A program made the position numbers and the translations under genes. A stretch of DNA of 64,000 nucleotides from Gammaproteobacteria bacterium (GTDB taxonomy: Bacteria > Pseudomonadota > Gammaproteobacteria > S012-40). Under the pieces are notes generated by a model that saw nothing but the letters and a program-made list of their open reading frames with translations, was not told the DNA's origin and searched no databases. Shown here piece after piece: positions 9,756 through 24,013 of the stretch (positions are counted from its first letter, which is position 1; each line of letters begins with the position of its first letter). The stretch is taken from the NCBI GenBank assembly GCA_029881255.1, contig JAOUMY010000001.1:496001-560000 (forward strand). Reading direction: 5' to 3'.

Positions 9756-10712
9756 CTACGCGACTGCTGTCTGTTCGCGGTTTTCAAACGGCAAGCTTGG
9801 TGAAAGACAACTATAAGCGATTCTTCTGCCATCACTCTTGGCAAAGTCAACGAAGGCACGCGCAGCGGGAGACAGTCTTTTACCTGCCGCATAGGCCAGA
9901 TACCACTCTTTCATTATCGGAAAGCCTTCAACATCCAATTCAGTCAGCAGTCCAAGCTTTAACTCCAAGGGCACCGCAAAACGAGACAACACACTCAGGC
10001 CCAGCCCACCAATTACCGCTTGCTTAATTGCTTCATTGCCACCGAGCGTCATACGCGTGTTTAGACGGATATTTTTTTCTTCACAGAAACGTTGTATCTC
10101 TTTCAGTGTCGTGGAACCTGGCTCACGGACAATAAATGGCTCTTTCATCAGTCTTGCCAAAGAAATATTTTTTTCTTTTGCTAGCGGATGATCGCGCGGT
10201 GCGATTACTACCAATGGATTTTCGACAAGAGAGATTACCTTAACGTCTAAATCTGTAGGTATGCGCCCAAACACATAGAGATCATCGGCGTTGTTTTCCA
10301 GTCGCTCTGTAACAATCGGACGTCTTGCAACGGTTAAATTAATGTCGATATTCGGGTAGGCTTTGTAGAATTCTCCAAAAATTCGCGGCAGAAAATATTG
10401 CGAGGTGATATTTCCGGCAATACATAACATACCTTGCGGCTCATTCTTGTACTCGGCAACTTCCCGTTCAATTTCACCGAGATCTGTCAGCAGTTTGCGA
10501 CAATGCTCGTAAAAGAGTTTACCCGGCGCCGTGAGATACAATTTTTTGCCTACTTGCTCAAAAAGAGGAATACCGAGACTTTCGGAAAGATGTTTTATCT
10601 GTAGCGAGATCGTAGATTGAGTAACAAATAATTCCTCTGCCGCACGTGTAAAACTCAAATGCCGCGCGACAGAATCAAATGCCTGTAATTGGCGAACACT
10701 AACTCTCAACAT
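9756..10712 (-). CDS. LysR-family regulator, CbbR-like
   Basis: 318 residues. An N-terminal winged HTH (residues ~1-60: QLQAFDSVARHLSFTRAAEEL, TQSTISLQIKHL) precedes a LysR substrate-binding domain. The effector domain carries NEAIKQAVIGGLGLSVLSRFAVPLE-type and ...LDVEGFPI..WYL segments that resemble CbbR, the regulator of Calvin-cycle genes. No cbb or RuBisCO gene is in the window, so the target is not shown. The ATG at 10712 has GGAGG 8 nt upstream, which decides the start over 10733. It is co-directional with the small membrane protein gene downstream. Confidence 0.85.
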   Translation of the reverse strand: MLRVSVRQLQAFDSVARHLSFTRAAEELFVTQSTISLQIKHLSESLGIPLFEQVGKKLYLTAPGKLFYEHCRKLLTDLGEIEREVAEYKNEPQGMLCIAGNITSQYFLPRIFGEFYKAYPNIDINLTVARRPIVTERLENNADDLYVFGRIPTDLDVKVISLVENPLVVIAPRDHPLAKEKNISLARLMKEPFIVREPGSTTLKEIQRFCEEKNIRLNTRMTLGGNEAIKQAVIGGLGLSVLSRFAVPLELKLGLLTELDVEGFPIMKEWYLAYAAGKRLSPAARAFVDFAKSDGRRIAYSCLSPSLPFENREQTAVA

Positions 10713-10766
10713 TCCATTAACCTCCAATGCCAAGTTTCCTTAGATGGAGGGCAAGGCGTAATAATT

Positions 10767-11750
10767 TCAAGTATTAAAAGAAATATTTTTTGCCGGACGA
10801 CCTTTATTTAACAGTACGATCTCGGAAACAGAATTGTTGTCACCTGGAACACGTTCTACAAAACAGCTGGCTTTACGGCGGATCACCAATACATTGTCTG
10901 GCGGTAGCGTTGCATTGTAAGCATCTTGGAATTTCTTAACGGCTTGGCAGTAGAACGCGTTACAGGTGGCAGATCTGAGCTCGAAAGGGAGCACACAACC
11001 CATTTCTCCCTGGTTGATACAGGCGTTAGAAATAGACTCGCCTGGCAGAAAGGACAGGTAGAGGTTACAGACATCATTTACATCAAATTCTGGATTTTTA
11101 TCAATCAGCGTTTTTATACTATTTGCCGATAAGAAGGCATGTTCCGCACCATGCGTGCAGCAACCACCCTTGCAAATCGAGCAACATTGGTCACACCACT
11201 TTTTCAAACCAGCTTTTTTTGCAAACAGGTCGTAAACAGCTGATTGTCTTTGGATGGCATCTTGATATTGTCCATTCGGGACTTCAACGGCGCCCGTCAA
11301 CGCAAATGCCTCATTGGTAATTTTTAGCAAGTGCTCGACATATTTTTCACGTCGATTTTCCGCAAGTTTCTCTCGCCCTGTGTTTCCAGAAGGCAAGGAC
11401 ACTACCGTTAAATTTTCGTTCTTCAACAGATAATTACCGGACAGCACATGATCGCGAATCTGCGTATTTTCTCGTTTCTCTCTTTTTTTACACTTCGCCC
11501 GGTAAGTTTTTAGCTCCGCTTCCTTTATACGCCTATCCAGAATGAGTTTTCGTTTGAACGCTAGATGAGCGTCAAACAAGTGTGGCTCCATGAGCGACTT
11601 CTGATCAAATACTTGTTTGCATTCAAAAGCGGAACAAAGTACCGGTTGCTTATCATCTACAAACAAGGATTCGGTGGGGCTTAGCTGAGTGTCGCATACT
11701 GCGCATCGATAGGGCTGACCGATGCGCAACATTGTCTCCATGATTGTCAT
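10767..11750 (-). CDS. Cys-rich putative metal-binding protein, YkgJ-like
   Basis: 327 residues. The N-terminus has a zinc-ribbon-like C-x2-C (CAVC, residues ~16-19) with two more Cys (~39, 44). A highly charged helical segment follows (~65-95). The central CDQCCSICKGGCC cluster (residues ~185-197) and later Cys residues (NACINQGEMGCVLPFELRSATCNAFYC) resemble YkgJ/UPF0153 zinc- or iron-chelating domains. No signal peptide, so it is probably cytosolic. The function is unknown. Starts at codons 1, 4 or 7 are all possible. Confidence 0.65.
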   Translation of the reverse strand: MTIMETMLRIGQPYRCAVCDTQLSPTESLFVDDKQPVLCSAFECKQVFDQKSLMEPHLFDAHLAFKRKLILDRRIKEAELKTYRAKCKKREKRENTQIRDHVLSGNYLLKNENLTVVSLPSGNTGREKLAENRREKYVEHLLKITNEAFALTGAVEVPNGQYQDAIQRQSAVYDLFAKKAGLKKWCDQCCSICKGGCCTHGAEHAFLSANSIKTLIDKNPEFDVNDVCNLYLSFLPGESISNACINQGEMGCVLPFELRSATCNAFYCQAVKKFQDAYNATLPPDNVLVIRRKASCFVERVPGDNNSVSEIVLLNKGRPAKNISFNT

Positions 11751-12018
11751 TTCAACATCCGTATCCGCTTGGTATGTGCGTTAAACTAAATAATTGCCTA
11801 ATGTAATGAAATTCACATACGGCACTGACTTCAATAGGTCAATCGGCTGGTCTATTTCTGAGATGTTCAAAATAACAGTAAAGCGCACTTGGAACTATGC
11901 GCTGGTTAACAGTTTATCCTCATCATGTATATTCGAGACACAAAAAGGTGCTAGTCAAGACAGCGACGACGTTCGACAAAGCGGAACGAAGTCTGGTGCC
12001 GAGGAAAACGTTTGTTGC

Positions 12019-12594
12019 TTAGTGAAGATACTTCGTCACCAAGAAAATAATTGCTGTTGTAAACAAGGCGATAGCCAAGGTTCTCACGCCCGACCACAAC
12101 CAGAATGTGTTGCTTAATCTTCCGACAAATATTCCGAGAAAAAACAGTGAGATAAAACCTACCAACATAGATGCTAACAGGGCGTTTTGAACTGATAGTG
12201 TAGCTCCCTCCAAAAAGAGCGGCGAAAGTATCAGCATCGAAAGCAGAAAGGGGGAAGCTCCATTGACCAAGGCCACAAATAGCGGTACCCGACGCATTTG
12301 TTGCTCATGCTGTGATTCCCCCATGTCACGAATCATGGCATGTTCGAGGTCGGCTAATTCCTTTTTCCGCTCGGCGGTTTCGCTAATATATGCACTGGAA
12401 AATCCGCTTATACCCAACGCGACCGCCGCACCCAGACAGGCACTAATGACTGGTGCAACGGTGTCGGTTCCCCCGAAGTAAAACCCGACCATTATACCTA
12501 GCATGGTCAGTCCGCCATCGAAACCATTCACTACCATGTAACGCCGTGCAATCGCGAGTCCCGGCGTAAAAATTCGGCGTATACTTGTAATCAC
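12019..12594 (-). CDS. VIT/CCC1-type membrane transporter
   Basis: 191 residues with about five TM helices. The signature segments are NGFDGGLTMLGIMVG near the N-terminus, the cytoplasmic acidic helix SETAERKKELADLEHAMIRDM and the later LVNGASPFLLSMLIL. These match the VIT1/CCC1 family of Fe2+/Mn2+ transporters, though no substrate is shown. The start is a GTG (12592-12594) that overlaps the TGA of the upstream DUF211 gene (GTGA), which implies translational coupling. Confidence 0.75.
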   Translation of the reverse strand: MITSIRRIFTPGLAIARRYMVVNGFDGGLTMLGIMVGFYFGGTDTVAPVISACLGAAVALGISGFSSAYISETAERKKELADLEHAMIRDMGESQHEQQMRRVPLFVALVNGASPFLLSMLILSPLFLEGATLSVQNALLASMLVGFISLFFLGIFVGRLSNTFWLWSGVRTLAIALFTTAIIFLVTKYLH

Positions 12595-12851
12595 AAGCTA
12601 TTATGAATCTCTATTTCATCAACGCTATGGAGTGAACCGCCCATGGCGTGTATTGCGTCTTTAATCGGGTCCAGATCGATATTGTCGCCTTTGATCTCAA
12701 TAATCACAGACTCTGTCTTTTCATCTACCTCGTCGACTGCATAAATTACCTGATAACCGACGGACAACTCTGCAAGAGTTTTCGCAAAATCAATACCTTG
12801 CGGCTGATGCGGTTTGAGTACGTCCAGCACGATGCGTTTAATCGAAGACAC
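12591..12851 (-). CDS. DUF211 family protein
   Basis: 86 residues with a ferredoxin-like beta-alpha-beta pattern. It matches DUF211 throughout: IKRIVLDVLKPHQPQ at the N-terminus, a central VDEVDEKTESVIIEIKGDNID, and GGSLHSVDEIEI at the end. DUF211 proteins are better known from archaea and have no assigned function. The stop overlaps the GTG of the VIT-type gene by 4 nt, so the two are one operon and may act together, possibly as sensor and transporter (inference). Confidence 0.75.
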   Translation of the reverse strand: MSSIKRIVLDVLKPHQPQGIDFAKTLAELSVGYQVIYAVDEVDEKTESVIIEIKGDNIDLDPIKDAIHAMGGSLHSVDEIEIHNSL

Positions 12852-13081: not shown

Positions 13082-15472
13082 ATGGCCATCACCCTAATAG
13101 AGGACAAACCCAAACAGCAACTATTCGAGGAGGCAGCCACAGATCCCTTATTGTCGGCGGTCAGCCAATATGACGAAGTAGAGGCATTTCTTTCTCGACT
13201 GCAACACTCAACCATTGAACTCTCCGACTTAATTCACAAGGAATTCGAAACACGTCGGGTACGCTCGCTTTCACGCCTATCCGCCCTAAAGCAAGCCATC
13301 CAGGAGACACATGACACCTTGGCAGGGCAGTTTGGAAAGCTTCTGGAAATGTCCACTGTGGATAAATATGTTTTACGCTCAACCTTTGCGCGCATGGAAA
13401 AAACGCTCATCCGACTATCGCGTGAAGTACATCCATACCTCACCAGCGTGTTGGAGCCTCTGGCACCTAATCACGGCGTTATCAATACGCTTATGTCCCA
13501 GGTTCTCGCAGCATATTATCGTGCAGTCTCGGATGCACCCGAAAACCTGGTATCCGTTGTCGATTATTATACTTTGGCTATTATTCGAGAGGGTAAATCC
13601 GTTGTAGAGGCCTTCATCGAGGAATTCGAATCAACGACGATAGATAGAACACACAGTCGATTTAATCTTTCAAGTTATCGCAGGCTACGCAAACATTTTT
13701 ATCACCGACTTCGAATCTTGGAACTTCCTCTTGCCCAAATGACCAAAAAGCAGTTTTTGGATCATCGCAACGATTTAACAGAGCAATTAACGCTGCAACA
13801 TGAACAAATACACCATCAGCTTAGTGGCAACCTTGATGTAACCTGGCGGACTATACGCTTCAGTCTGGAAGAGGTATTGGCCGAGCTCGATGATATTTTG
13901 GACGATACCATCGATATGACGACAACATCACTAAATTCCCGACTAAGTGAACCTCAACAGATTTTATTAGATGGCCTTCAAAAGGCTTACGACTCTTTCG
14001 AAGAAATTGGTGAACAGTATTTTAATTTTTTCAATCATGTAGAGGCCTTGCTGGAAGATGATAGCAACAGCTGCCTTCAGGCATTACGTGCGCAGGTACA
14101 AAGAATACTAACGTTCAGGGAATCTCCACCTAGCAGAAGCAACCCGCTTAGATTCAAGTCCGCGATATTGTGGGCCAAGATCAATCGCATTTTTGATCTA
14201 AACATTGATGACATTAATCGTGGAAATCGACATATATTTAGCGTTGCTCGTGGCGGTGTAAAACAAGCGTTAAGGCATTTGCAAAGAGAGTCATATGATC
14301 AAAACACTTTGCTGCGCATGTCCGAGTTGCCTCCCATTAGCGAAATATTTGGTGCTGAGCGAAACCTTCCGCCAATATACAGAAGACTATTTAGTTCAAA
14401 ACCACTTGTTACTCTCGACATGGTAGTTTGGAGAGAGGAGCCTATCAGTCAGTTCATGGAGATATTTTATCGCTGGGAGAGTGGTCATGAGTGCTCGATC
14501 AGTATATGTGGCCAGGAAGGTAGCGGGAGAAACACGTTACTCAACGTTCTAGAAGGTGAACTCGAGTCTCTGATTGTCCGCCAAAGGGTAGAGATTACTG
14601 AAAGATTGCGCTCGCAGGCCGATATCATCAGGATGTTTCAGAATTGGTTCAAGATTGAGGAAGATGTCGAGTCCTTGGATGAACTCATTAGCTTGTTACA
14701 CCAACAGCCCAAGCAAGTCGTATTTGTGGAAGGATCACACAATTTACTGTTACGTACTATTGGCCTGAGAAACGCACCTCATGCCATGATGTATGTTATT
14801 TTGGCGACCAGATCCCAATTTCTTTGGGTTATGAGCTTCAAGCAATATCCTTGGCAAAGATTATCCTATCTATTCGATATACAACGCTACTTTACGCACC
14901 GAATTTCTATTGATTTTGGTAGCGATGTAGAAATAAGAGACGCCATTTTACTTCGACAACGCTGTTCACAATATCCGGTAGTTTTTACTGCCGGCTCGGT
15001 TCGTAGAACAGTTATCAAAAGAACGGTTAGCAGGCTTGGTGAAGAGTCCGCTCGAGCACAGAAAATATTGACAGATCTGTATTTTGAAGAGCTCTTTCAG
15101 ATCAGCGGAAAAAACATGAAGGCGGCCATGTATTTTTGGCTCTACTCTATAAAATATGATGCCACCAACAAACGCATTCTTGTCATACGAAGTCCTAGAG
15201 TGGAATTTGGATTTATTCAGGATTTGGATCGCTTATACCTATTTACACTGGGCGAAATAATTTACCACGGCGAGTTGTCGGTAACTGAACACGCGGAAAT
15301 ATTTAATTTGAACACTTTTGTCAGCCGAAGCCGACTGGAATATCTACGCCACATTCGTCTGCTTGAAGCACTTCGCTACGGAAGAAACAAACTGCCTTCC
15401 TCATATGGCATAAATCCAGTTTTTTACCAGCCCTTAGTATCGATACTAAGCGCGCAGCACATTTTGTACTAG
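13082..15472 (+). CDS. Large protein with degenerate P-loop, paired with MscS channel
   Basis: 796 residues with no signal peptide or clear TM helix. Residues ~1-400 are strongly helical with long coiled-coil-like stretches. Around 476-486 lies CGQEGSGRNTLL, a Walker A-like loop with Arg where Lys is expected. VVFVEGSHN at ~545 could be a Walker B strand, and the ATRSQFLW segment near 580 could be sensor-like. The C-terminal ~120 residues look like a winged-helix module. I do not recognise a named family; an AAA/STAND-like regulator is a reasonable inference. The MscS gene starts 6 nt after its stop, so the two products are very likely made together. The upstream region is divergent with DUF211. 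Confidence 0.7.
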   Translation: MAITLIEDKPKQQLFEEAATDPLLSAVSQYDEVEAFLSRLQHSTIELSDLIHKEFETRRVRSLSRLSALKQAIQETHDTLAGQFGKLLEMSTVDKYVLRSTFARMEKTLIRLSREVHPYLTSVLEPLAPNHGVINTLMSQVLAAYYRAVSDAPENLVSVVDYYTLAIIREGKSVVEAFIEEFESTTIDRTHSRFNLSSYRRLRKHFYHRLRILELPLAQMTKKQFLDHRNDLTEQLTLQHEQIHHQLSGNLDVTWRTIRFSLEEVLAELDDILDDTIDMTTTSLNSRLSEPQQILLDGLQKAYDSFEEIGEQYFNFFNHVEALLEDDSNSCLQALRAQVQRILTFRESPPSRSNPLRFKSAILWAKINRIFDLNIDDINRGNRHIFSVARGGVKQALRHLQRESYDQNTLLRMSELPPISEIFGAERNLPPIYRRLFSSKPLVTLDMVVWREEPISQFMEIFYRWESGHECSISICGQEGSGRNTLLNVLEGELESLIVRQRVEITERLRSQADIIRMFQNWFKIEEDVESLDELISLLHQQPKQVVFVEGSHNLLLRTIGLRNAPHAMMYVILATRSQFLWVMSFKQYPWQRLSYLFDIQRYFTHRISIDFGSDVEIRDAILLRQRCSQYPVVFTAGSVRRTVIKRTVSRLGEESARAQKILTDLYFEELFQISGKNMKAAMYFWLYSIKYDATNKRILVIRSPRVEFGFIQDLDRLYLFTLGEIIYHGELSVTEHAEIFNLNTFVSRSRLEYLRHIRLLEALRYGRNKLPSSYGINPVFYQPLVSILSAQHILY

Positions 15473-15478
15473 GAGTAA

Positions 15479-16390
15479 ATGAGAGAGACAATGGATCAAA
15501 ATGCGATAAAAACATTAACCGATCTGCTTTCGTTCAATGTGATCGTCGTTGGCGTTTTACTGATCACTATGGCATGGCTGGTTGTACATGCGCTTGATTA
15601 CGCCTCTCTACGGCTTAGTACACGCTTTCCAAAATATCGCCTGCAAATCTCCCGAGTATTTCCTATCGCGCGTCTACTTACATGGGTAACAGCGTTTTAT
15701 ATTTTAGTAGTGGATATCATACATCCTCCTCAGAACACAGCACTGGCTATACTTGCATCGGCAGGTTTAGCCATTGGCTTGGCTGCGCAAGACCCAGTCA
15801 GAAATATATTGTCTGGCATATTGATACTTTTCGATCAACCGTTTCGCGTTGGGGATATGATTCGTGTGGGCGAATACTATGGTGAGGTCGTGCGTATCGA
15901 CACCCGCACAACTCGCGTTAGAACATTTGATGATAATATTGTCAGTTTCCCAAATTCCTTGGTTTTGACGCAGGCTGTCGCTAATTCGAACAGTGGCAAT
16001 CTCGACGAACTCGTAATGGTGACATTTCATCTACCAGCATATATTGACACCCAGTTGCTAAAAAATCTTTTTTGGGAAGCAGCCGCCGCTTCACCGTATG
16101 TCTATTTGCGCAAGGGCATTACCGTATTGGTTGAAGATCAGTTCAATCGATCCTTTTTGACACGCATAACAGTCAAATGCTACGTAATTGACGTACGCTA
16201 CGAAAGACTCATGCATAGCGATATTACAGAGAATATTAAATCCGAGTTGATTAAGCTCGGACTGATCAATAAGGAAACCGTCATTTTTATGGCTGACCAG
16301 CCTGTTGAGTTTCATTCGAAAAACTACGAAGAAGAATCGACACCTAAAGACAATGGCATTGAGAAACAGAATTCAAGAATAATTAGCTAA
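15479..16390 (+). CDS. MscS-family mechanosensitive ion channel
   Basis: 303 residues. Two or three TM helices at the N-terminus are followed by the pore-lining helix and beta-domain signature ASAGLAIGLAAQDPVRN, ILILFDQPFRVGDMIRVG and the TTRVRTFDDNIVSFPNS loop typical of MscS. The C-terminal alpha/beta domain has the usual length. The channel should sit in the inner membrane and release small solutes on hypo-osmotic stress or another signal. AGGAG lies just before the ATG at 15479; a second ATG at 15491 is possible. It is coupled to the P-loop-like gene upstream. Confidence 0.9.
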   Translation: MRETMDQNAIKTLTDLLSFNVIVVGVLLITMAWLVVHALDYASLRLSTRFPKYRLQISRVFPIARLLTWVTAFYILVVDIIHPPQNTALAILASAGLAIGLAAQDPVRNILSGILILFDQPFRVGDMIRVGEYYGEVVRIDTRTTRVRTFDDNIVSFPNSLVLTQAVANSNSGNLDELVMVTFHLPAYIDTQLLKNLFWEAAAASPYVYLRKGITVLVEDQFNRSFLTRITVKCYVIDVRYERLMHSDITENIKSELIKLGLINKETVIFMADQPVEFHSKNYEEESTPKDNGIEKQNSRIIS

Positions 16391-16420: not shown

Positions 16421-16906
16421 TTAAGATTCGTCCAGTGGCGCGACACGAAATTTTCCTGCATCAACTGAAACAACGGTTACACGTGTACCCGCACCTAGCT
16501 GTTTGTTCAAACTTCCTTCATCCAATTCTACTTTCCACTCAATACCAGAGTAACGTGTCTTCGATGTACTATTCGAACTTAAATCGGACTCAAGATTAAA
16601 AACCAAACCTACAAAGTCACTACTGGTATCGTGAACATCATTGTTTCGAGTCTTTTCCATACTTTTTAACGGTTTCCATAGTGCCGCTGATATCAAAGCT
16701 GAAGAGAGCGCGAAACTGCCGATACTCGCTAACCAAGTGTCTGAAAGTATGCCCGCCCATAGCAAGCCTCCTGTCAACAGGGCACCTAAACCGAGAAACA
16801 GTACAAATCCGGTAGAAAAGCCAAGCACTAGCAACTCAATAGCAAGTAGCAGGAAACCTGCGGTAAACCAGAACGCATGTAAGTGCGTATTAAAATACTC
16901 AATCAT
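16421..16906 (-). CDS. NfeD-family membrane protein
   Basis: 161 residues with three to four TM helices in the first ~85 residues (FWFTAGFLLLAIELLVLG, GFVLFLGLGALLTGGLLWAG, SIGSFALSSALISAALW). A C-terminal OB-fold domain follows (KTRYSGIEWKV, LGAGTRVTVVSVDAGKFRV). NfeD-like proteins partner with SPFH/stomatin proteins in the membrane. The start ATG overlaps the stop of the SPFH gene (16903-16906), which supports translational coupling and a joint complex. Confidence 0.88.
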   Translation of the reverse strand: MIEYFNTHLHAFWFTAGFLLLAIELLVLGFSTGFVLFLGLGALLTGGLLWAGILSDTWLASIGSFALSSALISAALWKPLKSMEKTRNNDVHDTSSDFVGLVFNLESDLSSNSTSKTRYSGIEWKVELDEGSLNKQLGAGTRVTVVSVDAGKFRVAPLDES

Positions 16907-17883
16907 TTTGAGTCACCAGGCTGAGAACCAAATGCCTTACTCTCATTCATAGCAGCAACGATCGCAACCGCCTCAGCGACTACCGGTGCTGCTTCGTTGG
17001 ATTTACCATCCATAAGTACTACTGTAGAACTCTTGGCAATGGCATGTTTCGCATCGATAGCCTTGGTCGCCAGATCAAGCTGCACCGCTTTTTGGCCTTG
17101 CGCTGTGGCAGCCGCTTCGCCTATGGTTAGCAATGCTCCAGCCTTGGCCACCGCTACCATTTCGATCGCGCGCGCTTCACCCTCTGCCTTCAATATCTGT
17201 TCAGATTTATCTGCCTCGGCAGCCAATACCCGTGCCTGTTTCTCTCCTTCGGCAATATTAATCGCCGACTGTCGTTCACCTTCTGATTCCAGAATTGCCG
17301 CACGCTTTTCCCGTTCAGCTTTCATTTGTCTTTCCATTGCTTCGAGTACGCTACGTGGTGGCTCTATATCTTTAATTTCGTAGCGTAACACCTGCACACC
17401 CCAAGGTTCGGACGCTTCGTTTATTGAGTTTACAATGGCGACGTTAAGCGTATCGCGCTCCTCAAAAGTTTTATCGAGGTCCATCTTTCCGATTTCCGAA
17501 CGCATCGTCGTTTGTGCCAATTGGGTTACTGCAAAGGCGTAGTCTTCGACACCGTAACTCGCCTTATAGGGATCAAGAACCTTAAGATACAACACGCCAT
17601 CTACAGTCAAGCCGATGTTATCCTTTGTTATCGCGCCTTGACTGGGGACATCAATGGCTTGTTCTTTGAGAGTGCGAATATAGGCGACTTTATCTATAAA
17701 AGGCACAATAAAATTCAGACCAGCCGTAAGCGTGGCGTTATAGCGACCAAATCGCTCGATCACATAGGCGTTGTTCTGCGGAACAAACTTTATAGAAGTC
17801 TTTAGAAGCAAGACAACCACCACAGCAAATCCCATCCAAAAACCGAACGCTAAATCCAAATAGCTTCCACTATCGTCTATCAT
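16903..17883 (-). CDS. SPFH/stomatin-like (paraslipin, QmcA-type) protein
   Basis: 326 residues. One N-terminal TM anchor (AFGFWMGFAVVVVLLL) precedes the SPFH/band-7 domain: VPQNNAYVIERFGRYNATL, FIVPFIDKVAYIRTLKEQAIDVPSQ and a QLAQTTMRSEIGKMDLDKTFEERDTLN segment. A long Ala/Glu-rich helical tail (ESEGERQSAINIAEGEKQ...) follows. Such proteins form ring- or cage-like membrane assemblies and often associate with proteases. The ATG at 17883 is preferred over 17895 because GGAGAGG precedes it. It forms an operon with the NfeD gene. Confidence 0.9.
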   Translation of the reverse strand: MIDDSGSYLDLAFGFWMGFAVVVVLLLKTSIKFVPQNNAYVIERFGRYNATLTAGLNFIVPFIDKVAYIRTLKEQAIDVPSQGAITKDNIGLTVDGVLYLKVLDPYKASYGVEDYAFAVTQLAQTTMRSEIGKMDLDKTFEERDTLNVAIVNSINEASEPWGVQVLRYEIKDIEPPRSVLEAMERQMKAEREKRAAILESEGERQSAINIAEGEKQARVLAAEADKSEQILKAEGEARAIEMVAVAKAGALLTIGEAAATAQGQKAVQLDLATKAIDAKHAIAKSSTVVLMDGKSNEAAPVVAEAVAIVAAMNESKAFGSQPGDSK

Positions 17884-17972
17884 TGGCCTCTCCATTTCTC
17901 TTTGAATGTGCGCCTAAAAGAATTACTTACTATTACCACTGTTTCGTGGAGTTAGACTACCACTGCTGATCG

Positions 17973-22927: not shown

Positions 22928-24013
22928 ATGAACATGCAAGTTTTAATCGAATGGCTCGAGCCGATATTGGAATTGTTTGGCAAACATCCCTATATGAAGT
23001 CCTTAGTTGTATTGGCATTGGCCTTCGCAGTTGCCAACCTGATTTCTTTTGTCGTTAGCCGAATTGTCGTTCGCATCACTATACATACTGGCACAGAGTT
23101 AGATGATCGTATAGTAAGACTGTTAAAAGGCCCTGTTTATTGGACGGTGATATTGGTAGGCGGTCTGGCGGCCATTTCCATGCTTGAGTTCTCTCCATCA
23201 CTAGATTTCGGATTAAGCGGAATTCTCTATAGCATACTTATAGTTCTCTGGTCGCTTTTTATCACTCGTCTATTGAGATCTATTTTGGTTTCGATTAGCA
23301 GCAAACCCGATTCGTACTCATTGGTTCGGCCGCAGACATTGCCACTGTTCAGCAACGCCTCTTTTTTAATCGTAACCGTATTAGCCATATATCTGTTCTT
23401 TGAGACATGGAATATCGATATGACTGCCTGGCTGGCTTCCGCTGGGATTATCGGTATTGCCGTCGGTTTCGCCGCCAAGGATACGCTTGCCAATCTGTTT
23501 GCCGGCGTCTTTATTCTTGCTGATGGTCCGTACAAAATTGGCGATTATATCGTGTTGGAAAATGCCGAGCGGGGCAAGGTAACGCACATCGGAATTCGAA
23601 GCACGCGTATACTTACTCGAGACGACGTAGAGGTCACCATTCCCAATTCCATCATGGGCAATTCGCGCATTACCAATGAGTCAGGCGGACCATATGAGAA
23701 GTTTCGCATCCGGGTGCCTGTTGGCGCAGCATATGGGAGTGATATTGATCAGGTCCGCGACACTTTGCTGAAAGTAGCCTTGGAAGAGCCTGGCGTATGT
23801 AACAATCCCGAGCCAAGAGTACGGTTTCGTCGATTTGGAAACTCAGCTTTGGACTTCGAACTGTTATGCTGGGTAGAGAATCCGGAACTCCGCGGTCGTG
23901 TTGTGGATGCGCTTAACTCAACCATCTATAAACAATTTAAACTTACTGGCATCGAGATCCCTTATTCAAAACACGATATCTACATCAAAGAGATGCCCGA
24001 TAAGTTTAAATAG
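22928..24013 (+). CDS. MscS-family mechanosensitive ion channel (YnaI/YbdG-like size)
   Basis: 361 residues with about four to five TM helices. The MscS core follows: LASAGIIGIAVGFAAKDTLANLFAG, FILADGPYKIGDYIVLE, GKVTHIGIRSTRILTRDDVEVTIPNS and the C-terminal alpha/beta domain. Inner-membrane solute-release channel. It is distinct in sequence and length from the 303-residue MscS at 15479 and appears monocistronic. ATGs at codons 1 and 3 are both possible. Confidence 0.92.
   Translation: MNMQVLIEWLEPILELFGKHPYMKSLVVLALAFAVANLISFVVSRIVVRITIHTGTELDDRIVRLLKGPVYWTVILVGGLAAISMLEFSPSLDFGLSGILYSILIVLWSLFITRLLRSILVSISSKPDSYSLVRPQTLPLFSNASFLIVTVLAIYLFFETWNIDMTAWLASAGIIGIAVGFAAKDTLANLFAGVFILADGPYKIGDYIVLENAERGKVTHIGIRSTRILTRDDVEVTIPNSIMGNSRITNESGGPYEKFRIRVPVGAAYGSDIDQVRDTLLKVALEEPGVCNNPEPRVRFRRFGNSALDFELLCWVENPELRGRVVDALNSTIYKQFKLTGIEIPYSKHDIYIKEMPDKFK

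Follow-up and report, generated by a model that had tools for sequence, protein, structure and literature searches.

Bacterial MscS-type channels are regarded as stand-alone tension valves. At positions 13082-16390 of the window (the whole 64,000-nucleotide stretch of gammaproteobacterial DNA analyzed here), a gene for such a channel directly follows a gene for an ATPase-like protein, which raises the question of whether the channel works together with a dedicated cytoplasmic partner. The original prediction held that the two proteins may form a regulated channel. The features of the locus are as follows.

13082-15472, forward strand: partner gene, 796 amino acids, helical N terminus, predicted AAA+ domain (Orc/Cdc6-type fold, degenerate P-loop) and winged helix (ORF, homologues, fold)
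13082-14332, forward strand: N-terminal helical region, residues 1-417, predicted soluble, no transmembrane (TM) segment (TM prediction, model, relatives)
14333-15469, forward strand: AAA+/winged-helix module, residues 418-796, conserved and present in every homologue (alignments, models)
14507-14542, forward strand: degenerate Walker A CGQEGSGRNTLL, residues 476-487, Arg483 in place of Lys (alignment with relatives)
14714-14743, forward strand: degenerate Walker B strand QVVFVEGSHN, from residue 545 (alignment with relatives)
15251-15469, forward strand: C-terminal winged helix and conserved C-terminal tail (QHILY) (alignments, models, fold matches)
15473-15478, forward strand: intergenic spacer, 6 nt; the ribosome site AGGAG overlaps the partner-gene stop
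15479-16390, forward strand: MscS-type channel gene, 303 amino acids, three TM helices, member of the paired clade (PF00924, E 4.6e-22; tree; TM prediction)

The open reading frames agree exactly with the predicted 796-residue protein and the MscS gene 6 nt farther on, and a good ribosome site for the MscS start codon overlaps the stop of the partner gene (TAGGAGTAAATG). With a divergent gene on its upstream side and a convergent one on its downstream side, the pair stands by itself as a two-gene unit, as had been proposed; promoter and terminator scans at the pair did not exceed chance level. No Rfam elements were found in the window. The divergent neighbors upstream (12019-12851, minus strand) are a VIT1-family membrane protein (PF01988) and a small ORF (12591-12851). 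The convergent gene pair directly downstream (16421-17895, minus strand) encodes a small NfeD-like membrane protein, assigned by eye, and an SPFH/HflK-stomatin-like protein. The host genome has a single copy of the partner gene and four MscS genes besides the paired one.

An initial search within the same class found relatives of the partner in six other genomes. Five of these were clear and were aligned, and an MscS gene lies immediately 3' in all five, one of the pairs extending across two contigs with matching ends; a weak N-terminal match in the sixth genome (G077) was taken as a chance coiled-coil match and not used. Searching 369 class genomes and 299 genomes of the phylum with a profile built from the 355-residue C-terminal module gave full-length matches that were distinct from a background of generic AAA_22-like ATPases. 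These came from 15 genomes, that of the window included, and a same-strand MscS ORF adjoined the match in every one (15/15). One Gammaproteobacteria MAG and one Acidobacteria MAG emerged from a pattern scan of named genomes, and a plasmid collection, in which a first search with the soluble form of the partner had returned nothing, contributed Novosphingobium pentaromativorans US6-1, Novosphingobium sp. PP1Y and a Caulobacter, all with an MscS neighbor. Overall, an MscS ORF is located immediately 3' on the same strand in 20/20 relatives, a count that includes the pair split between contigs and one genome of a second class, with gaps of -11 to +28 nt. Existing annotations of the pairs read "AAA family ATPase" or "ATP-binding protein" followed by "mechanosensitive ion channel".

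The linkage holds equally when approached from the channel. In the 369 class genomes, searching with a profile built from paired MscS proteins produced 17 matches of at least 147 bits, separated by a gap from ordinary MscS proteins at 123 bits. Of these, eight belonged to pairs already known, and among the nine new channels eight have a partner homologue immediately 5' (E 1e-6 to 1e-15), the sole exception being a paired-clade MscS in genome G249 with no partner nearby. By comparison, none of 13 generic MscS loci has a partner homologue alongside. Across 230-240 genomes of a second class, independent searches with the ATPase and with the MscS protein led to the same single genome, in which the two genes are adjacent. 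Partner and MscS thus form a conserved genetic unit, which spans Gammaproteobacteria, Alphaproteobacteria and Acidobacteria and hence at least two phyla; its frequencies are lower bounds, as few candidates were scored per genome. The adjacency on which the original prediction turned is accordingly found from the ATPase side (20/20) and in reverse (8/9). No recurrent third gene was found near the pairs, the top Pfam families occurring in two to three loci each. A carbohydrate-phosphorylase neighbor at two loci was considered as a link to osmolyte synthesis, which we do not claim because both loci belong to one taxonomic family. At the locus of the only paired-clade MscS without a partner (L130, 5257-7025), a PIN/AbrB (VapBC-like) toxin-antitoxin pair, recognized by eye, is positioned just upstream on the opposite strand; the partner may have been lost or replaced there.

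The window partner falls into no family of Pfam, NCBIfam, PDB sequences or PADLOC, so that the profile search did not assign it to a known unrelated family; its match to AAA_22 (PF13401) reaches 13.4 bits (E 0.1) against a curated cut-off of 27. Several relatives pass the Pfam cut-offs for AAA_22/AAA_16, and relatives also have weak nSTAND1 matches below the cut-off. The best matches in a PDB-sequence profile search were Clp chaperones and were confined to the P-loop region. The predicted Walker A-like motif with Arg in place of Lys is borne out by Arg483: a GxxGxG[KR][STN] motif turns up in 0.04% of shuffles of the protein, and the P-loop is taken as real because GQEGSGRN aligns with the GEEGSGKK, GPEGSGKT and GDKGGGKT loops of relatives, as well as with an intact GxxGSGKTTLL. 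Likewise, the possible Walker B strand of the original prediction (QVVFVEGSH, residues 545-553) lines up with the IDEAH-type Walker B of relatives, for example, MIMVDEAH, although the window sequence VVFVEGSH does not fit the hhhhD[ED] pattern.

Structure models were built from alignments of five sequences and are of moderate quality. The model of the module (pLDDT 72.8) can be matched to Orc/Cdc6-type AAA+ proteins from end to end, with a VIA Z score of 12.6 to ORC4 at a large rmsd that results from different domain angles. Its AAA+ core superimposes on TnsC (Z 11.4, rmsd 3.5 over 152 residues), and its winged helix, anticipated in the original prediction, resembles those of CadC, CzrA and MarR (CzrA, rmsd 2.8 over 86). 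On these models, the partner module has an AAA+ core plus winged-helix fold. The full-length model (pLDDT 66.5) forms long helices at the N terminus, and the P-loop region is of low confidence in the models. As foreseen, the N-terminal ~410 residues are helical and devoid of TM segments; in a fold search with the full-length model, coiled coils made up most of the matches for the N terminus, which were not informative.

Three relatives have this N-terminal region too, at 23-31% identity; minimal forms lack it, and membrane forms have a multi-TM region in its place. Soluble partners are either minimal (about 390-430 amino acids) or, as in the window, carry a helical N terminus of about 410-430 amino acids. 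Membrane proteins with 4-8 predicted TM segments, mostly ahead of the module, account for 11 of the 29 partners, and several of them have a long, presumably periplasmic region. The partners without a P-loop are 307-416 amino acids long. Eight of these, found from the channel side, are true homologues according to a profile-profile comparison (probability 99.6%, E 3e-24, 317 columns). A ninth, encoded in two ORFs followed by an MscS gene, was seen on a megaplasmid of Halomonas sp. PA16-9 (L132, 2710-4746).

Of the 29 pairs, 12 retain the Walker A lysine (GxxGxGK[ST], most of them also with the Walker B Asp), nine have a substitution (R, R, R, I, L, V, T, T and A), and eight have lost it together with the loop, so the conserved job of the family cannot require ATP hydrolysis everywhere. 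The pair of the cultivable N. pentaromativorans US6-1 (JI59_RS21590/RS21595) is among those with the lysine. At least six changes of the Walker A motif map to the partner tree, with partner and linkage retained, which argues for a structural or regulatory conserved role. ATP turnover would thus be dispensable in many lineages and probably in the window copy as well. The ATPase-like character claimed by the original prediction must be qualified: the lysine is missing in 17 of 29 partners, that of the window included, which makes the window copy more likely a pseudo-ATPase.

The window channel has three hydrophobic segments (residues 21-39, 63-81 and 89-107), corresponding to three TM helices, and all 20 aligned paired channels match PF00924. 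The MscS C-terminal alpha/beta domain PF21082 gives no match in the window channel and matches five of the 20. In a PDB-sequence search, the paired channel family matches the solved MscS, MscK, MscM and YnaI sequences. Conserved residues specific to paired MscS proteins (R54, Y134, D152, N171, G173, F183, S205, Y235, D238 and R252) are all on the cytosolic side, in the TM1-TM2 loop and the cytosolic vestibule, where most MscS sequence outside the membrane lies anyway; that they sit where a cytoplasmic partner would dock is suggestive only.

In quick tree searches, paired MscS proteins fall on one side of a branch (SH-aLRT 95) against 19 generic MscS proteins, a separation that is partly by construction because the comparison set was picked in part with profiles built from the pairs. 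The groups among the partners and the mirror correlation are not by-products of this selection. Soluble, membrane and P-loop-less partners each occupy one side of a branch in the partner tree, and the MscS tree splits in the same manner. Patristic distances in the two trees correlate with r 0.93, compared to 0.21 for the best of 2000 permutations. By this measure, partner and channel co-evolve.

Genetic linkage, co-evolution, architecture and recurrent loss of catalytic residues are thus observed; a physical complex, a docking site and control of gating are what we infer. With somewhat better than even confidence, we consider that the two genes encode a single two-component channel, in which the 796-residue protein would be the dedicated cytoplasmic subunit that sets gating. 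The MscS protein would provide the pore, presumably heptameric, and the Orc/Cdc6-like AAA+ fold with its winged helix may serve for docking and regulation at the cytosolic vestibule. The variable N terminus is a candidate sensor, made of cytosolic helices in the window copy and of a periplasmic or TM region in other lineages. Input at the N terminus, and in some lineages nucleotide, would trigger a conformational change of the partner, and the conformation of the partner would determine if the pore opens or the tension needed for opening. Given that the window copy has lost the P-loop lysine and the Walker B acid pair, ATP hydrolysis is probably no part of its cycle, and nucleotide binding may persist. 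The membrane-anchored partners (4-8 TM), which place the module beside the membrane, count in favor of a two-component channel. Given linkage in 20/20 and 8/9 cases, the regulated channel of the original prediction is the best reading of the pair, and it is the ATPase-like label that needs qualifying. A conserved operon can also reflect co-regulation or assembly instead of a stable complex.

A different role for ATP has to be considered. The partner could be a true ATPase or ATP sensor that couples the energy state of the cell to opening of a solute channel, the window copy being a degenerate descendant. The 12 partners with GxxGxGK[ST], most of them with the Walker B Asp, and the relatives that reach the AAA_22/AAA_16 cut-offs are consistent with this, yet nine lysine substitutions (R, I, L, V, T or A) and eight full losses, on at least six occasions and with the pair kept, render it unlikely for the unit as a whole. 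The same losses bear on the possibility that the AAA+-like protein inserts, assembles or turns over this MscS subfamily from outside the mature channel. The AAA+ fold, the strict linkage and co-evolution, and the Clp chaperones at the top of the PDB-sequence matches, over the P-loop region only, would all fit such a factor. Chaperones of this kind, however, require ATP turnover, and 17 of 29 partners are without the Walker A lysine, eight of them without the loop altogether; generic MscS proteins do without such a factor, and the membrane-anchored forms with their large N termini resemble sensors. We therefore regard an assembly or quality-control factor as quite unlikely.

Matches of the fold to NB-ARC/NLR proteins, weak nSTAND similarity in Pfam, variable N termini and a patchy distribution are all features of a defense or conflict unit, in which a STAND/NLR-like sensor would open a killing MscS channel upon a phage or other trigger. 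Against this, no PADLOC family fits well (the best for the window partner are weak matches to BrxC over the P-loop and ZorA over the coiled coil), only a handful of 86 neighboring genes match defense models and no system recurs, and searches of phages and viral contigs for the partner gave no matches. P-loop loss is, moreover, unusual in switch-type STAND proteins, and such a unit appears very improbable to us. Finally, the winged helix might belong to a transcription regulator of the channel gene rather than to a channel subunit, given that the C-terminal domain folds like ArsR/MarR winged helices and that both genes share one operon. The winged helix is also a standard component of Orc/Cdc6-type proteins, however, 11 of the 29 partners span the membrane with 4-8 TM segments, and the partner follows the channel protein sequence (r 0.93), so that there is hardly any likelihood left for this explanation.

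A two-component channel resembles E. coli MscS and its superfamily (MscK, MscM/YjeP, YnaI and YbiO) in the three-TM MscS protein, the beta domain (PF00924) and the cytosolic vestibule. Known MscS subfamilies are distinguished by domains added within the same polypeptide (PMC4560390); by contrast, the addition in the paired system is a separate protein encoded upstream, and the paired channels form their own clade. In bacterial cyclic nucleotide-gated (bCNG) channels, the ligand-binding domain is fused to the channel. According to work cited in PMC4560390, these are MscS-superfamily channels with a non-mechanical input; they offer a precedent for such an input, whereas the paired system uses an AAA+-like protein in trans. 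With Orc/Cdc6-type AAA+ proteins, and also TnsC and ExeA/GspA-type AAA_22 proteins, the partner shares the AAA+ core, lid and C-terminal winged helix. It differs from them in that the window copy lacks sequence-level membership, the Walker A lysine and the Walker B acids, and in that the family is channel-linked with some membrane-anchored members. STAND/NLR NTPases (NB-ARC) likewise combine an NTPase with a winged helix, and NLR chains are among the fold matches, but the partner has no C-terminal repeat sensor, its variable part is N-terminal, and its P-loop is often lost.

In the open-access literature we found no description of an MscS/AAA+ pair, in line with the claim that the pair is not a standard one, and the consulted part of a study on Halomonas elongata channels, with four MS channels, does not mention such a partner. 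The two-gene unit is thus so far undescribed. Genomes carry many MscS paralogues, some with no detected mechanosensitivity, and other factors may be needed (PMC4560390); a conserved, co-evolving partner in at least two phyla is a concrete candidate for such an MscS-associated factor. Our results suggest that a channel of this type is opened or closed by a dedicated internal partner and not by membrane tension alone. We propose more tentatively, at a little under even chances, that the pair represents an unrecognized class of ion channel, an MscS pore with a separate AAA+-fold gating subunit that has repeatedly turned into a pseudo-ATPase, an ancient ATP-driven or ATP-sensing gate having become a nucleotide-independent regulatory cap. 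Nature itself supplies a built-in experiment on ATP in gating, from partners with an intact P-loop through single substitutions to complete loss of the loop.

Additional channel genes were noted near some pairs. In the window, a second, ordinary MscS-type gene (22928-24010, forward strand, 361 amino acids) is located ~7 kb downstream, is nearest to the MscK pore region, and falls on the generic side of the MscS tree. On the Caulobacter plasmid (L089, 7061-8904), the partner gene is followed by two tandem MscS genes, the second of which is very divergent. In G444 (L080, 8178-11981), the paired MscS lies near two more MscS-type ORFs (10117-10980, minus strand, and 10983-11981, forward strand), which makes this locus a local cluster of three channel genes.
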